Source: Alphaproteobacteria bacterium (GTDB lineage Bacteria; Pseudomonadota; Alphaproteobacteria; Rhizobiales; Xanthobacteraceae). From it: a DNA stretch of 54,443 bases. The DNA lies in contig JAJPHK010000162.1 of assembly GCA_021325315.1 (NCBI GenBank), positions 1 to 54,443 on the forward strand, given 5' to 3'. The notes below the pieces were generated by a model. That model was not told where the DNA came from. It made no database searches and worked only from the letters and a program-made list of their open reading frames with translations. The position numbers and the translations under genes are program-made. Of this stretch, positions 2,217 to 11,005 are shown piece after piece (within the stretch, counting starts at the first letter, position 1; each line of letters opens with the position of its first letter).

Positions 2217-3014
2217 TCAGCGGCGGAGTGACGCTTGGCGAAGAAGATAATTAAAGCAAGAATTCTCTGCATATCGCTCCGGATCGCCCTTATGGGTCAA
2301 CTTCAGTAGCGGCACGAGCTTGCCCTGAAGGACGTCACGATCGGCATCGGAGACTGGCGCAGCAAGTTTTTCCGCATAAGGCACAAAATAATGCGGACCG
2401 TCCGCGGATACCTGGGGCGTCTCAGCCCATATTTTCCGGAAGCGCCTGTCGGTTTTTACTGCTTCATCAAATAATGCGTGAAACCAGAAATAGGTGTGAC
2501 GCTGTTCGCGTTTTCTCCAGTAAAGAAGACACCGGCGGTACCACGCCTCCACGATATAATTGCCGGGCTTAGCGGCGAGAAACCAGCTTGAAATAACGCG
2601 CTCAGGCGCCAATCGGGCGAACGCAAAGAAACCGCTTCGCATGTTTTCATCAAGCCATGTATCGAGCGGCCGAAGGCAGTAAACGGTGCTGTCCGCCCAT
2701 ATTCCACCATAACGGCGCAAGAGAGCGATCCGAACCACGTCAGCCAAGGCTTCCGGCTCGATATTCTTGCGGGCGACAATCGAGAACAATTCGTCGTCCC
2801 GAAGCAAATCGTCCAGGACGGCGCGTTCAAGCGCACGAATGGTCCAACCCGGATTGTGCATTTGCCAAGTCTTCAGACTGGCCTGCACGATGGCGGGTGC
2901 CGCAGCCCATCCTTGCAGCCATAAAATCCAAATGATCCGGGGAATTTCCCCGCTCGCTCCGGGACCTTGAAAGATCGTGACGCGATCAAAAATGCGCTGC
3001 AATCGGGCAAACAT
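2217..3014 (-). CDS. Capsular-polysaccharide-type glycosyltransferase (Caps_synth / OCH1-like DXD family)
   Basis: The 265-residue protein matches the sugar-transfer family typified by GEIPRIIWILW near residue 22 and ADVVRIALLRRYGGIWADST at 91-110, where the WAD-ST segment replaces the classical DXD metal/nucleotide-sugar site. There is no signal peptide or membrane span, so it should act in the cytoplasm on a lipid-linked or protein acceptor. It is divergent from the SDR gene (71 nt to that start) and lies at the left end of a cluster with three more glycosyltransferases. Local base composition is a little more AT-rich than the flanking housekeeping genes, which would fit an acquired surface-polymer island. 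The sugar and acceptor cannot be read from the sequence. Confidence 0.8.
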   Translation of the reverse strand: MFARLQRIFDRVTIFQGPGASGEIPRIIWILWLQGWAAAPAIVQASLKTWQMHNPGWTIRALERAVLDDLLRDDELFSIVARKNIEPEALADVVRIALLRRYGGIWADSTVYCLRPLDTWLDENMRSGFFAFARLAPERVISSWFLAAKPGNYIVEAWYRRCLLYWRKREQRHTYFWFHALFDEAVKTDRRFRKIWAETPQVSADGPHYFVPYAEKLAAPVSDADRDVLQGKLVPLLKLTHKGDPERYAENSCFNYLLRQASLRR

Positions 3015-3085
3015 CGGCGCGCTTTCAAAAGGCCCGGGCTATGATATGTGTCCGGCCAGAAACATTCTCTATCAACCCGACTTCG

Positions 3086-3844
3086 ATGGACAAGAAGCGT
3101 TTTCACGACAAGGTTGCCGTGATTACCGGCGCTGCGCGCGGCATTGGGTTCGCCTGCGCGGAGCGATTCATTTCCGAAGGGGCGCGGGTTGCTCTCATCG
3201 ACATCGACGAAAAAGGTGCCGACGCTGCGCGCAAACTAGGATCCGGCGCTGTCTTTCTCAAATGCGATGTGGGCGAACGAGCGCAGATTGAAAGCGCGAT
3301 CGCCAGGTTCCCGAAGACACACGCTGACGTCGACATTCTGGTTAATAATGCAGCGGTCCCCTGTCGCGGCGATATTCTTGCCTTGACCGAAGAGGATTTT
3401 TTGCACGCCTTGAAAGTGAACCTGCTGGGCGCTTTTCATTTCAGCCAGCTTTGCGCGCGGCAAATGATGCAGCGGGCCTGCGAGGGCAATCCCCCAGGCA
3501 CGATCATCAACATCGGTTCGATCAATTCAGTTCTCGCGATGCCGGAAGCCACTGCCTATTGCGCTTCCAAGGGTGCGTTATTGCAGCTGACCCGTGCGAG
3601 CGCGCTTGCGCTTGCGCCTTATGGTATTCGGGTAAATGCGGTCGGGCCCGGATCTGTCGCGACCGAGAGAAATACAGAGTCGCTGGGTAGGGTATCGGCC
3701 CGCACCCCGCTCGGCCGTTTCGGAACGCCGGAAGAAATCGCGGGCGTCGTGGCCTTCTTGGCTTCGCCAGACGCAGCTTATATAACCGGTGAGATTATTT
3801 ACGTTGACGGAGGGCGGCTCGTCTTGAATTACACGGCGCGATGA
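3086..3844 (+). CDS. Short-chain dehydrogenase/reductase
   Basis: A classical SDR of 252 residues when started at ATG 3086 (MDKKRFHDKV). An upstream ATG at 3041 is in frame but adds 15 residues unlike the family. The NAD(P)-binding motif TGAARGIG is at 14-21, followed by LVNNAA and the catalytic Ser in NIGSIN and YCASK (Tyr-x-x-x-Lys). The C-terminus AAYITGEIIYVDGG is the standard family ending. An Asp ends the second strand (IDID), which favours NAD over NADP. The stop is 67 nt before the PqqD-like gene in the same direction, so it may head that operon. The substrate is unknown; a nucleotide-sugar or sugar oxidation would suit the neighbours. Confidence 0.88.
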   Translation: MDKKRFHDKVAVITGAARGIGFACAERFISEGARVALIDIDEKGADAARKLGSGAVFLKCDVGERAQIESAIARFPKTHADVDILVNNAAVPCRGDILALTEEDFLHALKVNLLGAFHFSQLCARQMMQRACEGNPPGTIINIGSINSVLAMPEATAYCASKGALLQLTRASALALAPYGIRVNAVGPGSVATERNTESLGRVSARTPLGRFGTPEEIAGVVAFLASPDAAYITGEIIYVDGGRLVLNYTAR

Positions 3845-3910
3845 AAGCGCCGCCTTCATCGAGCGAGCTTGCCATCTTATTTTACAGAACAAACCGGAAG
3901 GAATTTGACG

Positions 3911-4333
3911 ATGTCTGCGTCGGCGTATGCGGTTGCGAGCAAGAGCATCATCGCGAAGAGTTTCGATTCCGAATTGACACTGATCAATCTGGATACGGGA
4001 CAGTATTTCGCCGCCGGTGGCAGCGCAGTCGATTTCTGGGAGGCCATCTCGCCGGGCGCGACTGTCGCGCGCGTCGAGCAGATGCTTCTCGCCCGATACC
4101 TCGCTTCCGAGGAGGTCGTCAAAATAGAAGTGGAGAAATTGCTGCGGCTGTTTCTCGAACATGGGCTTCTTGCCGAGTCGGCTGCTACCGGGGACGAAAT
4201 TCCAGCGTCGAGCGGACAACAAAAGCCCTGGGAGTCAGGATGGCTCGAAGTGTACGGCGACATGAAAGAGCTTCTGCTGCTCGACCCGATCCACGACGTC
4301 GAAACCGAATGGCCGGTCGCGAAAAAGGCCTGA
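3911..4333 (+). CDS. PqqD-like RiPP-recognition protein with a leader-peptide-like C-terminal tail
   Basis: The start at ATG 3911 follows GGAAGGA at a good spacing and gives 140 residues. Residues about 10-90 match the PqqD/RRE fold that binds leader peptides: the INLDTGQYFAAG strand, SAVDFWEAISPG, then helices and FLEHGLL. After a linker the protein ends in a separate conserved-looking segment: PWESGWLEVYGDMKELLLL (106-124), DPIHDVETEWP (125-135). The aromatic-x-x-x-aromatic-Leu and Tyr-Gly-Asp pattern resembles lasso-peptide leaders (YxxPxL...G...L). Ordinary PqqD proteins (about 90 residues) lack such a tail. The gene sits 1 nt before the HprK-like kinase gene. I infer the tail is either the partner-docking segment or itself the modified substrate. 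Confidence 0.85.
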   Translation: MSASAYAVASKSIIAKSFDSELTLINLDTGQYFAAGGSAVDFWEAISPGATVARVEQMLLARYLASEEVVKIEVEKLLRLFLEHGLLAESAATGDEIPASSGQQKPWESGWLEVYGDMKELLLLDPIHDVETEWPVAKKA

Positions 4334-4334
4334 C

Positions 4335-5393
4335 ATGGCCGGGTCCATCCATTCGGACTTGCTTAATGCTCTTTCAGTAGCCGCAGCCGAATTTTTCGAC
4401 CGGTCCGCCAAGCAAAATTTTCATCATACTGCTTCGCTGAAGCTCGGCCCGTTTTCCGTTCGGTTGTCCTGCCAGACGGAGCCGTTATACGCGGTGCTAG
4501 TGCCGCAATTCGGGCTCGTTGCGCAGAAAAGCGAAGCCACACCCGATCTTGTCGTTCGCGTTATGCAAGATGCGGAAAGCCTTGCGCACTTGCAAAAGTG
4601 CTGGTCAGCGTTCGGTCTTCCCGAACCGTACACCTCGACAACTGTCAGACATGGCGATCTGCGCATTCACGCCGAATTCGACGAACAAGGGCTTGCGATT
4701 CTTTTCGTGCTCGATATCGCCATCGGTGCCGCCGTCTACGCGGCTGCGGCGGCAGAGCGGGTAAGGAAAATCGAAGGCGCCTATCCGCTCCTGTTGCTTC
4801 TGCGGCTGTGGTCGGAACGGACGCCTTATCTCTGGACGCACGGGGCTGTTGTCGGCGCCGGCAAGGCCGGTGTGCTGATCACAGGCATTGGCGGGGCAGG
4901 GAAATCCTCGACCTCGCTTTCCGTAACCGGCGGCAAGCTCAAGCTGATCGGAGATGACCACGTATTTATCGGCCCCGACCGGATCGCACATTCGATCTAC
5001 TGCACAATTAGGGTCCGCGAAGACATGCTTCCCCGGATCGAAGCCCTCGATCCGTGGTTCGGCAAGCAATGGTTTTACTGGCGCGACAAGCCCTCGCAGA
5101 TTCTGCCGGCGGACAAGCATCATTTCTTCGCTCGCCAGGCGCCGCTGAAGGCCATCGTCCTGCTTCGCCATCATTGCGATGATGCCCTGACGTTTCACCC
5201 CCTGCCCCGGATTGCCGGCTTGCGCGCCATTACGCCGGTGACGGTGACCCGCTACTATTCCGACCCGATGGCCACGCTCGAAAAGCTCATCGGGATCGTC
5301 GCTCCGCTTCCGGTGTATGAGTTTCGCACCTCTCCGGATTTGTCCACGATGCGCGATCCCTTTGAACGTTTCGTGAGAACTCTCGAAGGATGA
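4335..5393 (+). CDS. HPr-kinase-related ATP-dependent kinase (HprK-rel type)
   Basis: A 352-residue protein with a variable N-terminal half and an HprK-like P-loop kinase from about 165 on. The Walker A is GIGGAGKSS at 184-192. The GDDHVFI segment at 206-212 corresponds to the ADDxV metal/catalytic strand of HPr kinase/phosphorylase. No HPr or PTS genes are nearby, and the N-domain is not that of true HprK. Related kinases occur beside PqqD-like proteins, and in the paeninodin lasso-peptide cluster such a kinase (PadeK) phosphorylates the precursor peptide. A similar role on a peptide or glycan-linked substrate is inferred here. It starts 1 nt after the PqqD-like stop and overlaps the next gene by ATGA, so all are translationally coupled. 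Confidence 0.85.
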   Translation: MAGSIHSDLLNALSVAAAEFFDRSAKQNFHHTASLKLGPFSVRLSCQTEPLYAVLVPQFGLVAQKSEATPDLVVRVMQDAESLAHLQKCWSAFGLPEPYTSTTVRHGDLRIHAEFDEQGLAILFVLDIAIGAAVYAAAAAERVRKIEGAYPLLLLLRLWSERTPYLWTHGAVVGAGKAGVLITGIGGAGKSSTSLSVTGGKLKLIGDDHVFIGPDRIAHSIYCTIRVREDMLPRIEALDPWFGKQWFYWRDKPSQILPADKHHFFARQAPLKAIVLLRHHCDDALTFHPLPRIAGLRAITPVTVTRYYSDPMATLEKLIGIVAPLPVYEFRTSPDLSTMRDPFERFVRTLEG

Positions 5394-6100
5394 CCATGAC
5401 CGCGCCTTCTGTCTCTGGGATCATCGCTGTCCGCAACGGCGCGAACTATCTTGCCGAAGCGGTCGAGAGCTGCCTCGCGCAGACGCTGGCGCTAAGCGAA
5501 ATTCTCGTCGTGGACGACGGTTCGACGGATAGAACCGCCGATATAGCACGCGGCTTCGGCGGGCGCGTACGGCTCGTGCGGCAGGATTGGAGCGGAGTCG
5601 GTGCTGCGCTCAACAATGGGATTTCCCGCGCTTCTTCCGAATTCATCGCCTTTCTCGACCATGACGATATTTGGCTGCCAGAAAAGACTGCACTTCAGTA
5701 CGCGCGTTTGCGCGAGAATTCCGAACTGGAAGCCGTATTCTGCCATACCGAACAATTTATATCGCCGGAGCTGTTGGAAACATTGCGCGATAAGGTCCGT
5801 CTGCCGGCTGGATCGCAACCAGGTATCATGGCTTCGGGGATGCTCATCCGGAAAATCGCCTTCGATCGTCTCGGCCTGTTCGGCGGCGGCCAAAAGAATG
5901 CTGTTGCATTCGGCCCCTGGTATGCTCGCGCGCTTCAGCGGTCTCTCCGCAGCGAAATCCTTGCCGAAACGCTTGCACGCCGGCGAATTCACGATTCCAA
6001 CTACACGCGAACGGAAAGACGGGACTATCACGAGCATTTGCTCGCCTTCATCCGCGATGTCACGCGGCAAAAGCGGAATTCCAACAGCACTTCCGAATGA
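5390..6100 (+). CDS. Family 2 glycosyltransferase
   Basis: The 236-residue protein has the GT-A fold signature of family 2: VSGIIAVRNG at the start, ILVVDDGSTDRTADIA (about 38-53) and FLDHDDIW, where the DHDD segment is the metal-binding DXD. It lacks membrane spans, so it is cytoplasmic, and the C-terminal region is short for the family (236 versus 250-320). It overlaps the kinase stop and the next glycosyltransferase start by 4 nt each (ATGA), so kinase, GT2 and GT4 must be made together. The sugar is not predictable. Its coupling to the PqqD/kinase pair suggests that glycosylation and phosphorylation act on the same product. Confidence 0.88.
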   Translation: MTMTAPSVSGIIAVRNGANYLAEAVESCLAQTLALSEILVVDDGSTDRTADIARGFGGRVRLVRQDWSGVGAALNNGISRASSEFIAFLDHDDIWLPEKTALQYARLRENSELEAVFCHTEQFISPELLETLRDKVRLPAGSQPGIMASGMLIRKIAFDRLGLFGGGQKNAVAFGPWYARALQRSLRSEILAETLARRRIHDSNYTRTERRDYHEHLLAFIRDVTRQKRNSNSTSE

Positions 6101-7254
6101 AGCCGCCCGTGCCGGAAAGAAGATTAAATATCCTGTTCTGGAACGAGCCGTACCTGCCGATGATCGGCGGGGTAGAACTTTTCACGGCACGCCTTGCGGC
6201 TGTTCTCATAAGCCGCGGTCATCGAGTCTCGGTCGTCGCGGATCGCATTCCGTCGAACACAAGCGAATTTGAAGTCATCGACGGCGTATCAGTGTATCGG
6301 TTCCCGTTCCGAAAAACGTTGCAGGCCCTAAGCGGTCCCGGCGCAGAAGGCATGGAGCAATTTTCCGCGATTATCCGGCGGATAAAATCGCTGAAACGGG
6401 ATTTGCAACCCGATATCGTCCACATCAATTTTACCGGGCCGACCCCGCTATTCCATTTTCGAACGCTTGCAGACTCGGTATCTCAAACTGTGGTGACGTT
6501 TCAGGCGGCGCTGTTCGACCAACCCGCATCGATAGAGGGACTCGTTTCGACAATCCTGGAAAAAGCCAAATCCGTCGTTGCAGTTTCTCGTGCTGCAGCG
6601 AGAAATATCGAGCGGCATACTGGATTTCCCTTGAATAGGATTTCGATTGTCTTTCCCGGTATCCCTCATGCGTTGTTCGCCGCGCATCCGGAAAAAAGCG
6701 CCGCGGAACCCACGGTGGTTTTCCTCGGAAGGCTGGTTAAAGACAAAGGCGTCGACATCGCCATCCAAGCGATGGCGATATTAAAGCATGGAGCCAAGCT
6801 GAGTGTAATCGGCGACGGGCCCGAGCGTCCTGCCCTTGAGGCGCTCGTTCAACAATTGGATCTGCAACATTCCGTGCACTTCGCTGGCCGTGTCGATGAC
6901 GACACACGGCGCGATATGTTGGCAAAGGCTCACGTGATGATCGTTCCGTCACGTCATGAAGAGTTGTTTGGCATGGTCGCAGCCGAAGGGGCGCTTTCAT
7001 CGCTTCCCGTTATCGCAGCGCGGATGGGCGGATTGCCGGAAGTCGTGGCCGATGGAGAAACCGGAATTATCGTTCCGCCGGACGACCCTGTGGCGCTGGC
7101 GCAGGCGTTGGATCGGGTGCTGGCCGATCCGCAGCTCGCCGCGCGCATGGGGAGGAACGGCCGCGAGAGAGCCCTGCGCGAGTTTTCGCTCGAAAACACC
7201 GCCGATCGCTATGAGCGAATTTATTTCGATGCGCTAGACAAGGCTGTCGGATAG
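6097..7254 (+). CDS. Family 4 glycosyltransferase
   Basis: A 385-residue GT-B enzyme. The N-domain opens with the glycine-rich GGVELFTARLA and contains DIVHINFTGPTPLFHF. The C-domain has VVFLGRLVKDKGVDIAIQA, IGDGPERPALEAL, and the nucleotide-sugar-binding ESXXXE-like region EELFGMVAAEGALSSLPVIA, ending GLPEVVADGETGIIVPPDD. The residue order is typical of retaining GT4 enzymes such as mannosyl- or glucosyltransferases. It is the last gene of the coupled operon and converges with a second GT4 gene, overlapping it by 21 nt at the 3' ends. The two proteins are clear paralogues. Confidence 0.9.
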   Translation: MKPPVPERRLNILFWNEPYLPMIGGVELFTARLAAVLISRGHRVSVVADRIPSNTSEFEVIDGVSVYRFPFRKTLQALSGPGAEGMEQFSAIIRRIKSLKRDLQPDIVHINFTGPTPLFHFRTLADSVSQTVVTFQAALFDQPASIEGLVSTILEKAKSVVAVSRAAARNIERHTGFPLNRISIVFPGIPHALFAAHPEKSAAEPTVVFLGRLVKDKGVDIAIQAMAILKHGAKLSVIGDGPERPALEALVQQLDLQHSVHFAGRVDDDTRRDMLAKAHVMIVPSRHEELFGMVAAEGALSSLPVIAARMGGLPEVVADGETGIIVPPDDPVALAQALDRVLADPQLAARMGRNGRERALREFSLENTADRYERIYFDALDKAVG

Positions 7255-8346
7255 CAATTCCTGATAGAGCCGCTCGTATTTTTCGGTCATCGCGGTAAGC
7301 GTAAATTCCGCGATCGCGCGCCCCCGCGCGCGTTTTCCGTATTGCTTCGCGGTTTCGGGTTCCAGAAGGAGTTTTTCCATCACCCCGGCCAGTTGCCCCG
7401 CATCGCCCGGTTCGACCAGCAAGCCGGTTTCTCCATGCAGCACGATTTCAGGAAGCCCGCCAATCTTCGAGGCGATGACGGCTTTGCCAGCAAGCGCCGC
7501 TTCTGTCGCGACAAGCGGCGCTGGATCGCTGAAAATGGACGGGATGACCACGGCCGCGGCTTCCGCCATGCAGCGCGCGAGCGATTCCTGCGGTAACATC
7601 CCGGCAAATTCGATAATATCGCGCAGCCCCATTCGCGAAATTTGCTCTTCGAGCAGAGCGCGCTCCGGACCCGCGCCGACGATCCGGAGCTTCGCCTTGT
7701 GGCGTGCTGTCAGCTTCGAGAAAGCCTCGATCAGAACCTGCACCCCTTTGTCGCGCACCAGCCGCCCGGCGAAGACAAAAACCGGCTCCGCTGACGACGC
7801 TTCATACGTTTTCAAAAAGCGCCCCTCATGCACGCCGTTCCGGATGACCTCCACTTTTCCTTCCGGAAGCGACAGCACTTCCTCCAGATGGCTTGCCAAA
7901 AACCGGGACGGAGCGATCAGCCGGCCGACCTGCACCGCCAGCGTCTTTCCAAGCTGCAGCCCGCCCGGCGCGGTATCGAGCGGGCTATGAAACACGACAA
8001 CTGCCGCATCTTTCCTCGGCTTCGTACGCAGATAGAAAAACGGGCTCGCATCGGTGAAATTGATATGGACGAGGTCGGGACGAAAACGCTGCCGCAAGCC
8101 GGCAACTTCCTTCTGGATCTCGAAAATCGCCGCATGATCCCGTGACGTCAGAGCCTGGAAGAACGGGAAGCGGTGAACTGGAATTCCCTCAATTATTGCA
8201 TGGCGATCAAAAGATTCGTTCGAATGGCTGGAGACGACCAGAACGTCGTGGCCTTTCGCGGCTAGTTTATGTGCGAGATTTTGGGTATAGATTTCCACCC
8301 CTCCCAGGGACGGCGCATATTCCTGATTCCAAAACATAATCCGCAA
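7234..8346 (-). CDS. Family 4 glycosyltransferase, convergent paralogue
   Basis: The 370-residue GT-B protein is closely similar to the product of the convergent gene at 6097: FWNQEYAPSLGGVEIYTQNLA against FWNEPYLPMIGGVELFTARLA, and DLVHINFTDASPFFYLRT against DIVHINFTGPTPLFHFRT. The C-domain has FVFAGRLVRDKGVQVLIEAF, GAGPERALLEEQ and a donor-site region SDPAPLVATEAALAGKAVIASK in which the first acidic residue of the usual motif is Asp. Its gene overlaps the paralogue's 3' end by 21 nt and is divergent from the nucleotidyltransferase gene with only 51 nt between starts, so that short gap must hold both promoters or one shared element. Confidence 0.9.
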   Translation of the reverse strand: MRIMFWNQEYAPSLGGVEIYTQNLAHKLAAKGHDVLVVSSHSNESFDRHAIIEGIPVHRFPFFQALTSRDHAAIFEIQKEVAGLRQRFRPDLVHINFTDASPFFYLRTKPRKDAAVVVFHSPLDTAPGGLQLGKTLAVQVGRLIAPSRFLASHLEEVLSLPEGKVEVIRNGVHEGRFLKTYEASSAEPVFVFAGRLVRDKGVQVLIEAFSKLTARHKAKLRIVGAGPERALLEEQISRMGLRDIIEFAGMLPQESLARCMAEAAAVVIPSIFSDPAPLVATEAALAGKAVIASKIGGLPEIVLHGETGLLVEPGDAGQLAGVMEKLLLEPETAKQYGKRARGRAIAEFTLTAMTEKYERLYQELLSDSLV

Positions 8347-8397
8347 GAAATTTTCCCCTAGCCCGCCCCTTTAAGTTGGAGTTTCGCAAGCGCTGCC

Positions 8398-10338
8398 ATG
8401 AATCTCAAGGACCGGGACAAGCGCCTGCTGTTGCGCGCCGCGCTCAACGAGCCGCAAGATGCGATTCGTTATTTCAAACGATGGTGCGCAACAAACACAA
8501 TTTACGACGCGCCCCACAACGCTTCCCGGCTTTTCCCGCTGATCCATCAGAACATTGGCTCTCTTATCGACGACAAACAGACCGCGGAACGTCTGCGCGG
8601 ATTCGCTCGGCATACATGGCTCGCAAACAATTTGCGCGTTCGCTTATGCCTGCAAGCGCTCGAGCGGTTGGCAAAAGCCGAAATCCCCACGCTCCTTCTC
8701 AAGGGCGCCGCGATGGCGAGCGTCGTTACGGGCGATTACACGGTCCGCCAAATGGGCGATTGCGACATTCTCGTGCCGCATGACCGCGCCAAAGACGCCG
8801 TCGATTGCCTCCTGACGGCGGGATTGTATTCCATTCCTTTCGACGTGCGCCGGTTCAGCGAATTCCATTTCCGTGAATTTCATGGCGCAACGTTCCGAAA
8901 CAGCGACGCGGAAGTCGACGTGATCGACCTGCATTGGCGTCCGCTGCGCGAAGTCGGATGCCCGCAACTGACCTCCGACTTCTTCGCCTCCGCACGGCCG
9001 GCGAAATTCGCCGGACACGCGGCGCTGGGGCCGAGCCCCGAAACTATTTTCTTCCACATCGCGATGCACGGCAGCGAATGGGCGCCGGAAGATCGCTTCG
9101 ACTGGTTCGCGGATCTCGCGATCATTTTGCGGCGATTTGAAAATTCCTTCGATTGGAGCACTGTCACCAACCTGGCCGCAAAATTCGGATGCGGACGAAT
9201 CCTCTACCAGGCGCTGCGTCGCGCTCGATCGATGATCGAAATACCGGTGCCTGGAGAGGTTTTTCAAAAACTCGGCAGGCGATCCGATTTCTTTCAGCGT
9301 TACGAAGCGCGCAAGCGAATGAGCGGCGGGCCGAGATCTGAGCTCGGCAAGACGATTCTGACCTTGCAAAAATATCGGCGCAGCGGACTTCCGCTGATCC
9401 GTCTGCCGTTATCGAAAGCGGTACCGGCGATCCTGCGTGAGCGGCTGGACACGGAGAGCGAAAAGCGAGCCCCGTCGGGAGCGGGCCTCTATGAAGTAGA
9501 TTTCGTTCATGGCTGGCATTCCGCGGAAGTTGGCGGGCGCTGGAGCGACGGGCGATATGCCTTCATCCGCCTCCCGAACGACCCGAAGGCGGAGCGCGAA
9601 AAATTGCTGTTCCGTTTCCATGTGATCGATCTCTACGCCGATACGATCGATATTTTTATCGGCCGCCACATGGTGAAGCGCATCTCATGGCGGAAGAAGG
9701 GACCGCGGTTTCACGCGCTGCTTCTCGACATCCCCCGCAGCGAACGTGGAAAGCATTGTCTGAGAATTTTTTTCAGGTTGCGACGGCCCCGCTCTCCCGC
9801 GGCCTTGTGGGGTGCAAAGGATGCCCGCACCCTCGGAATTTTTCTGCACGACATCCGCACACTGGGGGCGCCTCGCGACATTGCATCGGCCCCGATCGAT
9901 TTCCGGACGGATGAGGAAGTCGTTTGGACAGGCTGGTCGTTTCCTGAGGATGCCGGCCGCTGGACAGACGGCGAAGAAGCGATCATCCGGTGGACATCGA
10001 CAAAGGATATCCCCGCCAATTCCCTGTTGAAGCTCGCGATCGCCGGTCACTTCGGCCAACCAACGCTGACCGGAGACGTTTCGCTGAACGGCACGACGCT
10101 CGGCGCGCTTGATCTTCGCACGCCTTCAAGCGAGCAGGAAATTCTGCTGCCGGTTCCGATACGGATCGCAGCGAAAGAGGAAATCGAAATTCGGATCCGG
10201 ATCGATAGACCGCGCTCGCCGGAAGAGCTCGGCTTGTCTTCCGATTCCCGGAAATTGGGGTTACTCGTTCGCACGCTAAAACTGGAACCGGTTCTTTCCG
10301 GCCACGCGCCAGCCCGATCGGCCGCCCTGACAAATTGA
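8398..10338 (+). CDS. NTP_transf_5-type nucleotidyltransferase with two tandem beta-sandwich-like repeats
   Basis: The N-terminal half of this 646-residue protein is an uncharacterised nucleotidyltransferase domain of the PF14907 type: TLLLKGAAMASVV (98-110), then MGDCDILVP (119-127) with the paired aspartates 121 and 123, and a downstream HIAMHGSEW helix. Family members are usually 350-400 residues. Here about 280 extra residues follow, forming two copies of a 125-residue unit at roughly 363-490 and 498-632. Both copies contain GW(x)4-5GRWxDGxxAxIR and end in RPRSPxxLG/WxxxDxRxLGxxL. Similar GRWxDG beta-sandwiches occur in polysaccharide enzymes. A homologous nucleotidyltransferase (PadeN) accompanies the HprK-like kinase in the paeninodin cluster. 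No ribosome site is clear. Confidence 0.85.
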   Translation: MNLKDRDKRLLLRAALNEPQDAIRYFKRWCATNTIYDAPHNASRLFPLIHQNIGSLIDDKQTAERLRGFARHTWLANNLRVRLCLQALERLAKAEIPTLLLKGAAMASVVTGDYTVRQMGDCDILVPHDRAKDAVDCLLTAGLYSIPFDVRRFSEFHFREFHGATFRNSDAEVDVIDLHWRPLREVGCPQLTSDFFASARPAKFAGHAALGPSPETIFFHIAMHGSEWAPEDRFDWFADLAIILRRFENSFDWSTVTNLAAKFGCGRILYQALRRARSMIEIPVPGEVFQKLGRRSDFFQRYEARKRMSGGPRSELGKTILTLQKYRRSGLPLIRLPLSKAVPAILRERLDTESEKRAPSGAGLYEVDFVHGWHSAEVGGRWSDGRYAFIRLPNDPKAEREKLLFRFHVIDLYADTIDIFIGRHMVKRISWRKKGPRFHALLLDIPRSERGKHCLRIFFRLRRPRSPAALWGAKDARTLGIFLHDIRTLGAPRDIASAPIDFRTDEEVVWTGWSFPEDAGRWTDGEEAIIRWTSTKDIPANSLLKLAIAGHFGQPTLTGDVSLNGTTLGALDLRTPSSEQEILLPVPIRIAAKEEIEIRIRIDRPRSPEELGLSSDSRKLGLLVRTLKLEPVLSGHAPARSAALTN

Positions 10339-10537: not shown

Positions 10538-10693
10538 TTCCCGCGTCTCTTCGCTATTGCAGCATCAATCACATCATTTCTGTGATGGGAGATATCGATA
10601 AGTGCAATTAAGCCGGCACAGGCGGCTTGCTTTTGGCTGCGGACGCATAGACGATCTTAAATCGCTGACAAACAGCCTTTGGGGAACACGGCA

Positions 10694-11005
10694 ATGCCAC
10701 AGCTTGTGAAAGTCGTATCTGCGGGAATCGTCGTCGCGGGAATTTTCAGCGGGGTTGCGCTCATGCCGTCACCCGCCGCAGCGGTGGTCACCCAGAAAGA
10801 GAAGGCGCTGCTCAGGCAGTCGGTCACCGAATGCAAGGCGGAAGCAAAGGACCAAAAACTGAAATGGCGCGCACGCCGGAAATACGTGAAGAGCTGTGTG
10901 ATTGGAAAACTCAAGGCACATCCTGGCGTCAACGTGCAGGAGTTACTGCGCACCTACCCGGATCTGGATAAGCTGCCGAGAGCGGACGTCAGAAATCCAG
11001 TATAG
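10694..11005 (+). CDS. Small exported PsiF-repeat-like protein
   Basis: From ATG 10694 (GGGGA 8 nt upstream) the protein has 103 residues. An in-frame TTG at 10679 is less likely. It has a signal peptide ending SPAAA, then a stretch ECKAEAKDQKLKWRARRKYVKSCV with two Cys separated by about 22 residues, as in the PsiF repeat family (CxxEAK...R..Fm..C). That family is periplasmic and of unknown function; psiF of E. coli is phosphate-starvation inducible. The remainder is basic and predicts no other domain. It stands alone between tRNA-Thr and the tartrate-type dehydrogenase, which is on the other strand. Confidence 0.7.
   Translation: MPQLVKVVSAGIVVAGIFSGVALMPSPAAAVVTQKEKALLRQSVTECKAEAKDQKLKWRARRKYVKSCVIGKLKAHPGVNVQELLRTYPDLDKLPRADVRNPV

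Follow-up and report, generated by a model that had tools for sequence, protein, structure and literature searches.

Does a compact group of genes for a PqqD-like protein, an HprK-like kinase, a nucleotidyltransferase and several glycosyltransferases act on a peptide, and if so, where is that peptide encoded? The question is raised by a locus in the window studied here, i.e., a stretch of 54,443 nucleotides from an alphaproteobacterium of the family Xanthobacteraceae (assembly GCA_021325315.1, contig JAJPHK010000162.1). A preliminary description had listed seven genes at this locus and proposed an undescribed system, modifying a peptide or glycan, that has neither a separate precursor nor a cyclase. 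Open reading frame and profile searches agree with all seven genes, their positions and their families.

Gene order and the kinase of the island

The island begins with a gene for an SDR oxidoreductase (3041-3844, plus strand), found by profile search, which is probably an accessory member; SDR genes lie near five of the compared loci. It is followed on the same strand by the genes for the PqqD-like protein of 140 amino acids (3911-4333; PF05402, E 6e-8), the HprK/PEPCK-superfamily kinase (4335-5393), a GT2 glycosyltransferase belonging to the core module (5390-6100) and an accessory GT4 glycosyltransferase that varies between loci (6097-7254), the latter two assigned by profile search and co-occurrence. 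A second, also accessory GT4 found by profile search occupies the minus strand (7234-8346), and the NTP_transf_5 nucleotidyltransferase (E 6e-36) is encoded at 8398-10338 on the plus strand, with the domain itself at about 8521-9234. The packing is as tight as had been claimed: a single nucleotide separates the PqqD-like gene from that of the kinase (TGA-C-ATG), and 4-nt overlaps join the kinase to the GT2 and the GT2 to the GT4. A promoter scan of the window gave nothing useful.

The nucleotidyltransferase carries a C-terminal extension, weakly DUF7024-like, and its last ~350 residues (9300-10335) are absent from most homologues of ~500 amino acids; the best match is a 698-aa homologue in a related locus, L033 (E 2e-94), and the extension is probably common to both. 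Directly upstream of the island lies a Caps_synth/Gly_transf_sug glycosyltransferase gene (2217-3014, minus strand), and directly downstream a gene for a small PsiF-like protein (10679-11005) that scores below family cut-offs.

The kinase matched Hpr_kinase_C with an E value of 3e-5 and 24 bits, under the Pfam cut-off of 33. Its structural model (pLDDT 90) resembled the catalytic domain of HprK (1ko7, Z 13.3 over 132 residues) and, over nearly its full length, PEPCK (1j3b, Z 16.4 over 300 residues). The protein carries the P-loop GxGGxGKS, the catalytic His and the Asp-Asp pair by which the HprK/PEPCK superfamily is recognized. Mutagenesis of lasso kinases has shown that they require a His-Lys-Asp-Asp tetrad (PMC9266682), whose residues (H169, K190, D207 and D208 in the window) are kept in 96-100% of the 97 kinases compared. 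Since relatives and structure agree, the assignment as an HprK-like kinase is firm despite the weak profile score. The PEPCK-like fold predicted for the whole kinase would leave carboxylate chemistry open as well, but a fold by itself shows no reaction.

A conserved tail fused to the RRE

The PqqD-like protein proved to be more than a bare RRE of ~90 amino acids: its last ~40 residues form a conserved leader-plus-core-like tail, and the order in the tailed proteins is RRE, variable linker, leader-like segment and conserved end. In the window, these parts are the RRE domain (residues 4-91; 3920-4183, plus strand), identified by PF05402 and by its modelled likeness to lasso RREs, the leader-like segment (residues 104-124; 4220-4282, plus strand), delimited by the family consensus and the AF2 model, and the conserved core-like C-terminal peptide DPIHDVETEWPVAKKA (residues 125-140; 4283-4330, plus strand), recognized from alignments. 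The leader-like consensus [FYW]xxPx[LVIF]..[YFH].D[ML]..L fits the motif [Y/W]xxPx[L/V/I/A/F/Y] that is recognized by the RREs of lasso peptides and of linear polyphosphorylated peptides (LPP) (PMC13381572), and the segment is apparently a candidate for RRE binding. The window has W107..L112..Y115.D117M in this segment, with G110 in place of the usual P at −15 from the DPxH sequence, and it also departs from the consensus in the end, where TEWP replaces xGWP.

When 32 divergent proteins were aligned, D125, P126, H128, W134 and P135 within the end, DP[IV]H[DE]V..(G)WP, were invariant. By mean majority fraction, the end (0.81) ranks above the leader-like segment (0.50), the RRE (0.41) and the linker (0.26), i.e., the tail end is more conserved than the RRE domain, and it is where the protein's best-conserved columns lie. 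This is not an artefact of searching with the tail, because the first 15 sequences of the alignment had been located via the kinase: a kinase search of 297 related genomes gave matches in 18, and each of the 14 best loci (L023-L036) has a PqqD-like protein nearby that ends in the common tail motif. Positions upstream of DPxH, which lie outside the DNA pattern used in the wider search described below, are likewise conserved among the matches listed, with [FYW] at −18 in 53/72, P at −15 in 56/72, a hydrophobic residue at −13 in 71/72, [YFH] at −10 in 72/72 and D/E at −8 in 71/72.

Neither the gaps between the genes of the window nor the compared loci yielded a precursor or another suitable leader-bearing ORF, the leader-type motif being present in 68 PqqD ORFs versus only 2 unrelated ones. 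The earlier statement that the island has no precursor thus stands for a separate, recurrent precursor gene, but not for a precursor-like peptide as such: one is present, joined to the RRE.

The AF2 model of the window RRE with its tail, built from 66 sequences, has a mean pLDDT of 89. In it the leader-like segment is ordered (pLDDT about 85-95), forming a strand at 111-115 and a helix at 118-122, and the last ~20 residues are loose (pLDDT 61-65). The RRE matched those of the lasso proteins TbiB1 (5v1v and 5v1u, Z 12.9 and 12.5) and TfuB1 (6jx3, Z 11.3), structures that were solved with the leader bound. At groove positions 33, 35, 77, 81 and 86 the residue type is kept in the family, the window itself having A35, L77 and F81. 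We infer from the model that the leader-like part of the tail may dock in the RRE groove.

Several variants of the tailed protein were encountered. In L104 (9990-10376), the RRE tail bears a lasso-type leader, YEKPELYCHGNLEQLILSGE, in place of the DPxH end, and the gene adjoins those of a divergent kinase and a GT4. A single ORF in L180 (7070-7999) comprises two RRE domains, with the tail DPVHDVDEAGWP after the first and another stretch, FxQPVLGVFG, after the second. One genome, G428, has three RRE copies of the tailed family (L080, L088 and L101), and the tail of L101 stops early at ALDPPLPA.

Recurrence of the module across bacteria

The neighbourhood comparison bears out the recurrence of the RRE/kinase/nucleotidyltransferase/glycosyltransferase module that the preliminary description had proposed. 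The PqqD-like protein, the kinase and the GT2 occur together in 37/37 loci of Hyphomicrobiales/Pseudomonadota, the kinases of L027, L033 and L035 having been located by a six-frame profile search, and NTP_transf_5 is present in 32/37. In the 75 listed 8-kb pieces from other genomes, the kinase was found in 65, the GT2 in 61, NTP_transf_5 in 41 and a GT4 in 17. Since RRE, kinase and GT2 recur in all 37 loci and in most of the 75 others, this grouping is not due to chance. In 27/37 loci and, among those listed, in 48/75, the RRE gene is immediately followed by the kinase gene in the same orientation. There are also kinase-GT2 fusions and, within the module of Bosea-related bacteria, fusions of an ABC exporter to a GT2 (about 1190 aa; L082 10926-14492, L083 10925-14509 and L126 4425-7991), and such fusions tie these functions together. 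MsbA-like ABC exporters are found in about a dozen loci, which is a minority, and no cyclase, leader peptidase, exporter or small peptide gene recurs across the compared loci.

Alignment searches gave full-length matches to the tailed protein in 20/297 related genomes and in 6/398 of a phylum sample, other RREs matching over the domain only. We then scanned 85,000 species genomes with the DNA pattern for DP[IV]H[DE]V-x(3,4)-GWP, in its reverse-complement form. Among the matches listed, 80 loci were kept, of which 75 encode tailed PqqD-like proteins; the other five are DNA polymerase I genes of Variovorax/Proteobacteria that contain the motif by chance, and they were removed. The tailed loci among these matches come from about a dozen phyla, and the record titles name Alphaproteobacteria, deltaproteobacterial lineages, Cyanobacteria, Clostridia, Chloroflexi, Bacteroidota, Acidobacteria, Verrucomicrobia, Planctomycetes, Gemmatimonadetes, Actinomycetota, Chlamydiae and Nitrospirota; as the names are those of the titles and many records are metagenome-assembled genomes, single assignments may be wrong. 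A search of phages gave no match, and that of plasmids only Crinalium, where the whole set resides on a mobilizable cyanobacterial plasmid and is annotated merely as "PqqD family protein" and "HPr kinase". A scan of genome contigs with the single kinase protein gave no confirmed match.

A kinase and nucleotidyltransferase working without a PqqD partner had been named as evidence that would speak against joint function. This was not borne out in two relatives, L037 (9165-10367) and L041 (9541-10671, minus strand), where Pfam finds a PqqD/RRE domain at the N-terminus of the HprK-like kinase itself, beside NTP_transf_5. Small ORFs with a common RRRAALxKLGKAA..PATL-like segment adjoin HprK-like kinase and NTP_transf_5 genes in L042 (8490-8681, 8678-8929 and 8983-9198) and L037 (8772-9026, minus strand), and they have the look of standalone precursors from another system, as yet undescribed. 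An RRE fused to the kinase together with standalone peptide ORFs is the mirror arrangement of the tailed module, and it supports a peptide substrate.

Possible function of the tail

Taken together, the results suggest a self-contained RiPP-like module whose RRE protein includes its own precursor, to be modified by the kinase, NTP_transf_5 and the glycosyltransferases. We regard this as the best-supported explanation and give it a probability of about 0.5. With the gene order, conservation, catalytic residues, co-occurrence and predicted RRE fold at hand, we infer the modification of the tail and the following order of steps. The RRE would bind the leader-like part of a C-terminal tail, either in its own chain or in that of a partner, and present the last ~15 residues, DPxHxVxxxGWP, to the partner enzymes; the HprK/PEPCK-type kinase would phosphorylate a residue thus presented; NTP_transf_5 would act on the phosphate, adding a nucleotide or a sugar, as the NTP transferase PsmN is reported to add a hexose to a phosphorylated peptide (PMC9266682); and one to five GT2s with accessory GT4s would extend a glycan that differs between species. 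On the best reading, the tail would be phosphorylated and/or glycosylated.

The strongest objection to the tail as a substrate is that, in 33/113 tails, neither Ser nor Thr occurs in the stretch that starts with DPxH and runs to the C-terminus (22/113 have none from D−8 on), so that the known Ser phosphorylation cannot be general there. In that case the modification falls on some other residue, the acceptor is located elsewhere, or the tail serves for docking. Moreover, it is unusual for a RiPP core to be conserved across phyla, the module is accompanied by no dedicated protease, an ABC exporter is present in a minority of loci, and the window tail departs from the consensus. There is also a bolder form of the substrate explanation: the RRE would be its own precursor in an intramolecular RRE-leader-core arrangement, and the near-invariant DPxHxVxxxGWP end would be phosphorylated or acyl-activated on a residue other than Ser/Thr (His or Asp/Glu) by the PEPCK-like kinase and then receive a species-specific glycan, making up a pan-bacterial system that has no name as yet. 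We consider this doubtful.

It is possible, as a tentative alternative, that the tail is a constant docking or gating peptide which occupies the RRE groove or holds the RRE to the kinase or GT2, the true substrate being a separate peptide, a lipid carrier or a sugar. The extreme cross-phylum conservation of an end devoid of a conserved Ser/Thr is more in keeping with a binding motif than with a modified core, and the tail is constant while the number of GT2s varies; on the other hand, the loci hold no other recurrent substrate gene, and the segments follow the order of a leader-core precursor and end, likewise, at the C-terminus. It is unlikely that the island belongs to a capsule or exopolysaccharide pathway, where the kinase and nucleotidyltransferase would make activated sugars, the glycosyltransferases consume them and the RRE serve as a regulator. 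Such a role would account for the many glycosyltransferases and the adjoining Caps_synth gene, and LPP clusters likewise lie in capsule loci (PMC13381572), but no constant set of sugar-precursor or export genes accompanies the recurring RRE, kinase and GT2, and the kinase belongs with HprK/PEPCK rather than with sugar kinases.

Least probable is a remnant or diverged lasso or LPP cluster that has lost its cyclase and protease. The RRE is indeed nearest to lasso RREs, but the identical architecture is found in many phyla among the matches listed, and three genomes (G364, G399 and G499) keep a lasso set, with an untailed RRE, B2 and cyclase adjoining, in addition to the tailed module elsewhere in the genome. 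Furthermore, a FastTree phylogeny of the RRE domains placed 27 untailed RREs, including TbiB1 and PbaB1, in one clan (support 0.98), with the tailed ones outside; of eight other RREs scored as untailed, five have intact, degenerate or altered tails (L101, L103, L104, L152 and L180). For so short a domain, this provides moderate evidence of a coherent tailed lineage.

If the tail is the substrate, the module bears on genome mining. Mining for RREs seeks a separate precursor nearby and tends to drop loci that have none; because here the precursor-like peptide lies within the RRE protein, a large and widespread group may have been overlooked. Key residues of the tail stay nearly constant in groups as different as Alphaproteobacteria, Chloroflexi, Bacteroidota and Cyanobacteria, and the accompanying set of glycosyltransferases is variable; together, this points to a general function.

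Relation to known systems

A lasso cluster was rejected, in line with the earlier statement that the island has neither a cyclase nor a B2 protease. The B2 leader peptidase (Transglut_core3, PF13471) is absent from the window's genome and was never near the module in other genomes; matches to the Asn_synthase cyclase (PF00733) in the window's genome are on other contigs, none in the cluster, and one of 31 genomes, G473, has such a gene about 3 kb from the module, in an atypical locus. The window RRE scores 28 bits against the lasso B1 model NF033536 (cut-off 80), though its fold matches lasso RREs. With the pathways of paeninodin- and pseudomycoidin-type phosphorylated lasso peptides the module shares a discrete RRE of the lasso fold, an HprK-like kinase with the His-Lys-Asp-Asp tetrad and an NTP transferase (PMC9266682), and it differs from them in having no nearby cyclase or B2, no free precursor and no C-terminal Ser.

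The HPr-rel-A system (NCBIfam TIGR04352/TIGR04353) likewise pairs a PqqD-like protein with an HprK-related kinase of weak similarity to ours, but the profile search suggested in the preliminary description gave no match above curated cut-offs: the window kinase scores 13.5 bits against TIGR04352 (cut-off 200), and the RRE has no match to TIGR04353, which few members of the tailed family reach even weakly. Membership was thus rejected. The SynChlorMet cassette, compared here by its ScmC/ScmD pair (NCBIfam) alone, also has a PqqD-like and HprK-like pair and gives weak matches for some members, the window proteins falling below these families.

The nearest described system is LPP, reported from Bacillota in 2026 (PMC13381572), and in view of it the term "undescribed system" went too far: LPP clusters and the tailed module both combine an RRE, an HprK-like kinase and an NTP transferase with no macrolactam cyclase, both have surroundings of polysaccharide genes, and the MsbA-like exporter is shared by a minority of the loci compared here. 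LPP clusters have, in addition, a SipW-like peptidase and a separate precursor, which bears a YxxP leader and is phosphorylated on Ser (PMC13381572). No separate precursor with the LPP leader YxxPxVLxHQ was found here; no SipW-like LppS was detected among the scanned window genes, nor any recurrent family of this kind in the loci, with profiles that include no SpI model; and polyphosphorylation of Ser is unlikely as a general rule, judging by the tail sequences. Conversely, the tailed module has a tail fused to the RRE, no conserved Ser/Thr, a near-constant GT2 and a pan-bacterial spread. The fused tail, the GT2 partner and this breadth are not covered by Pfam/NCBIfam models, and the open-access literature searched held nothing relevant on the tail motif or on RRE-precursor fusions. 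In other words, a cyclase-free set of RRE, HprK-like kinase and NTP transferase was already known from Bacillota (PMC13381572), and what is new, as far as the open-access literature goes, is that the tail is fused to the RRE, that the GT2 is near-constant and that the module is of pan-bacterial spread.
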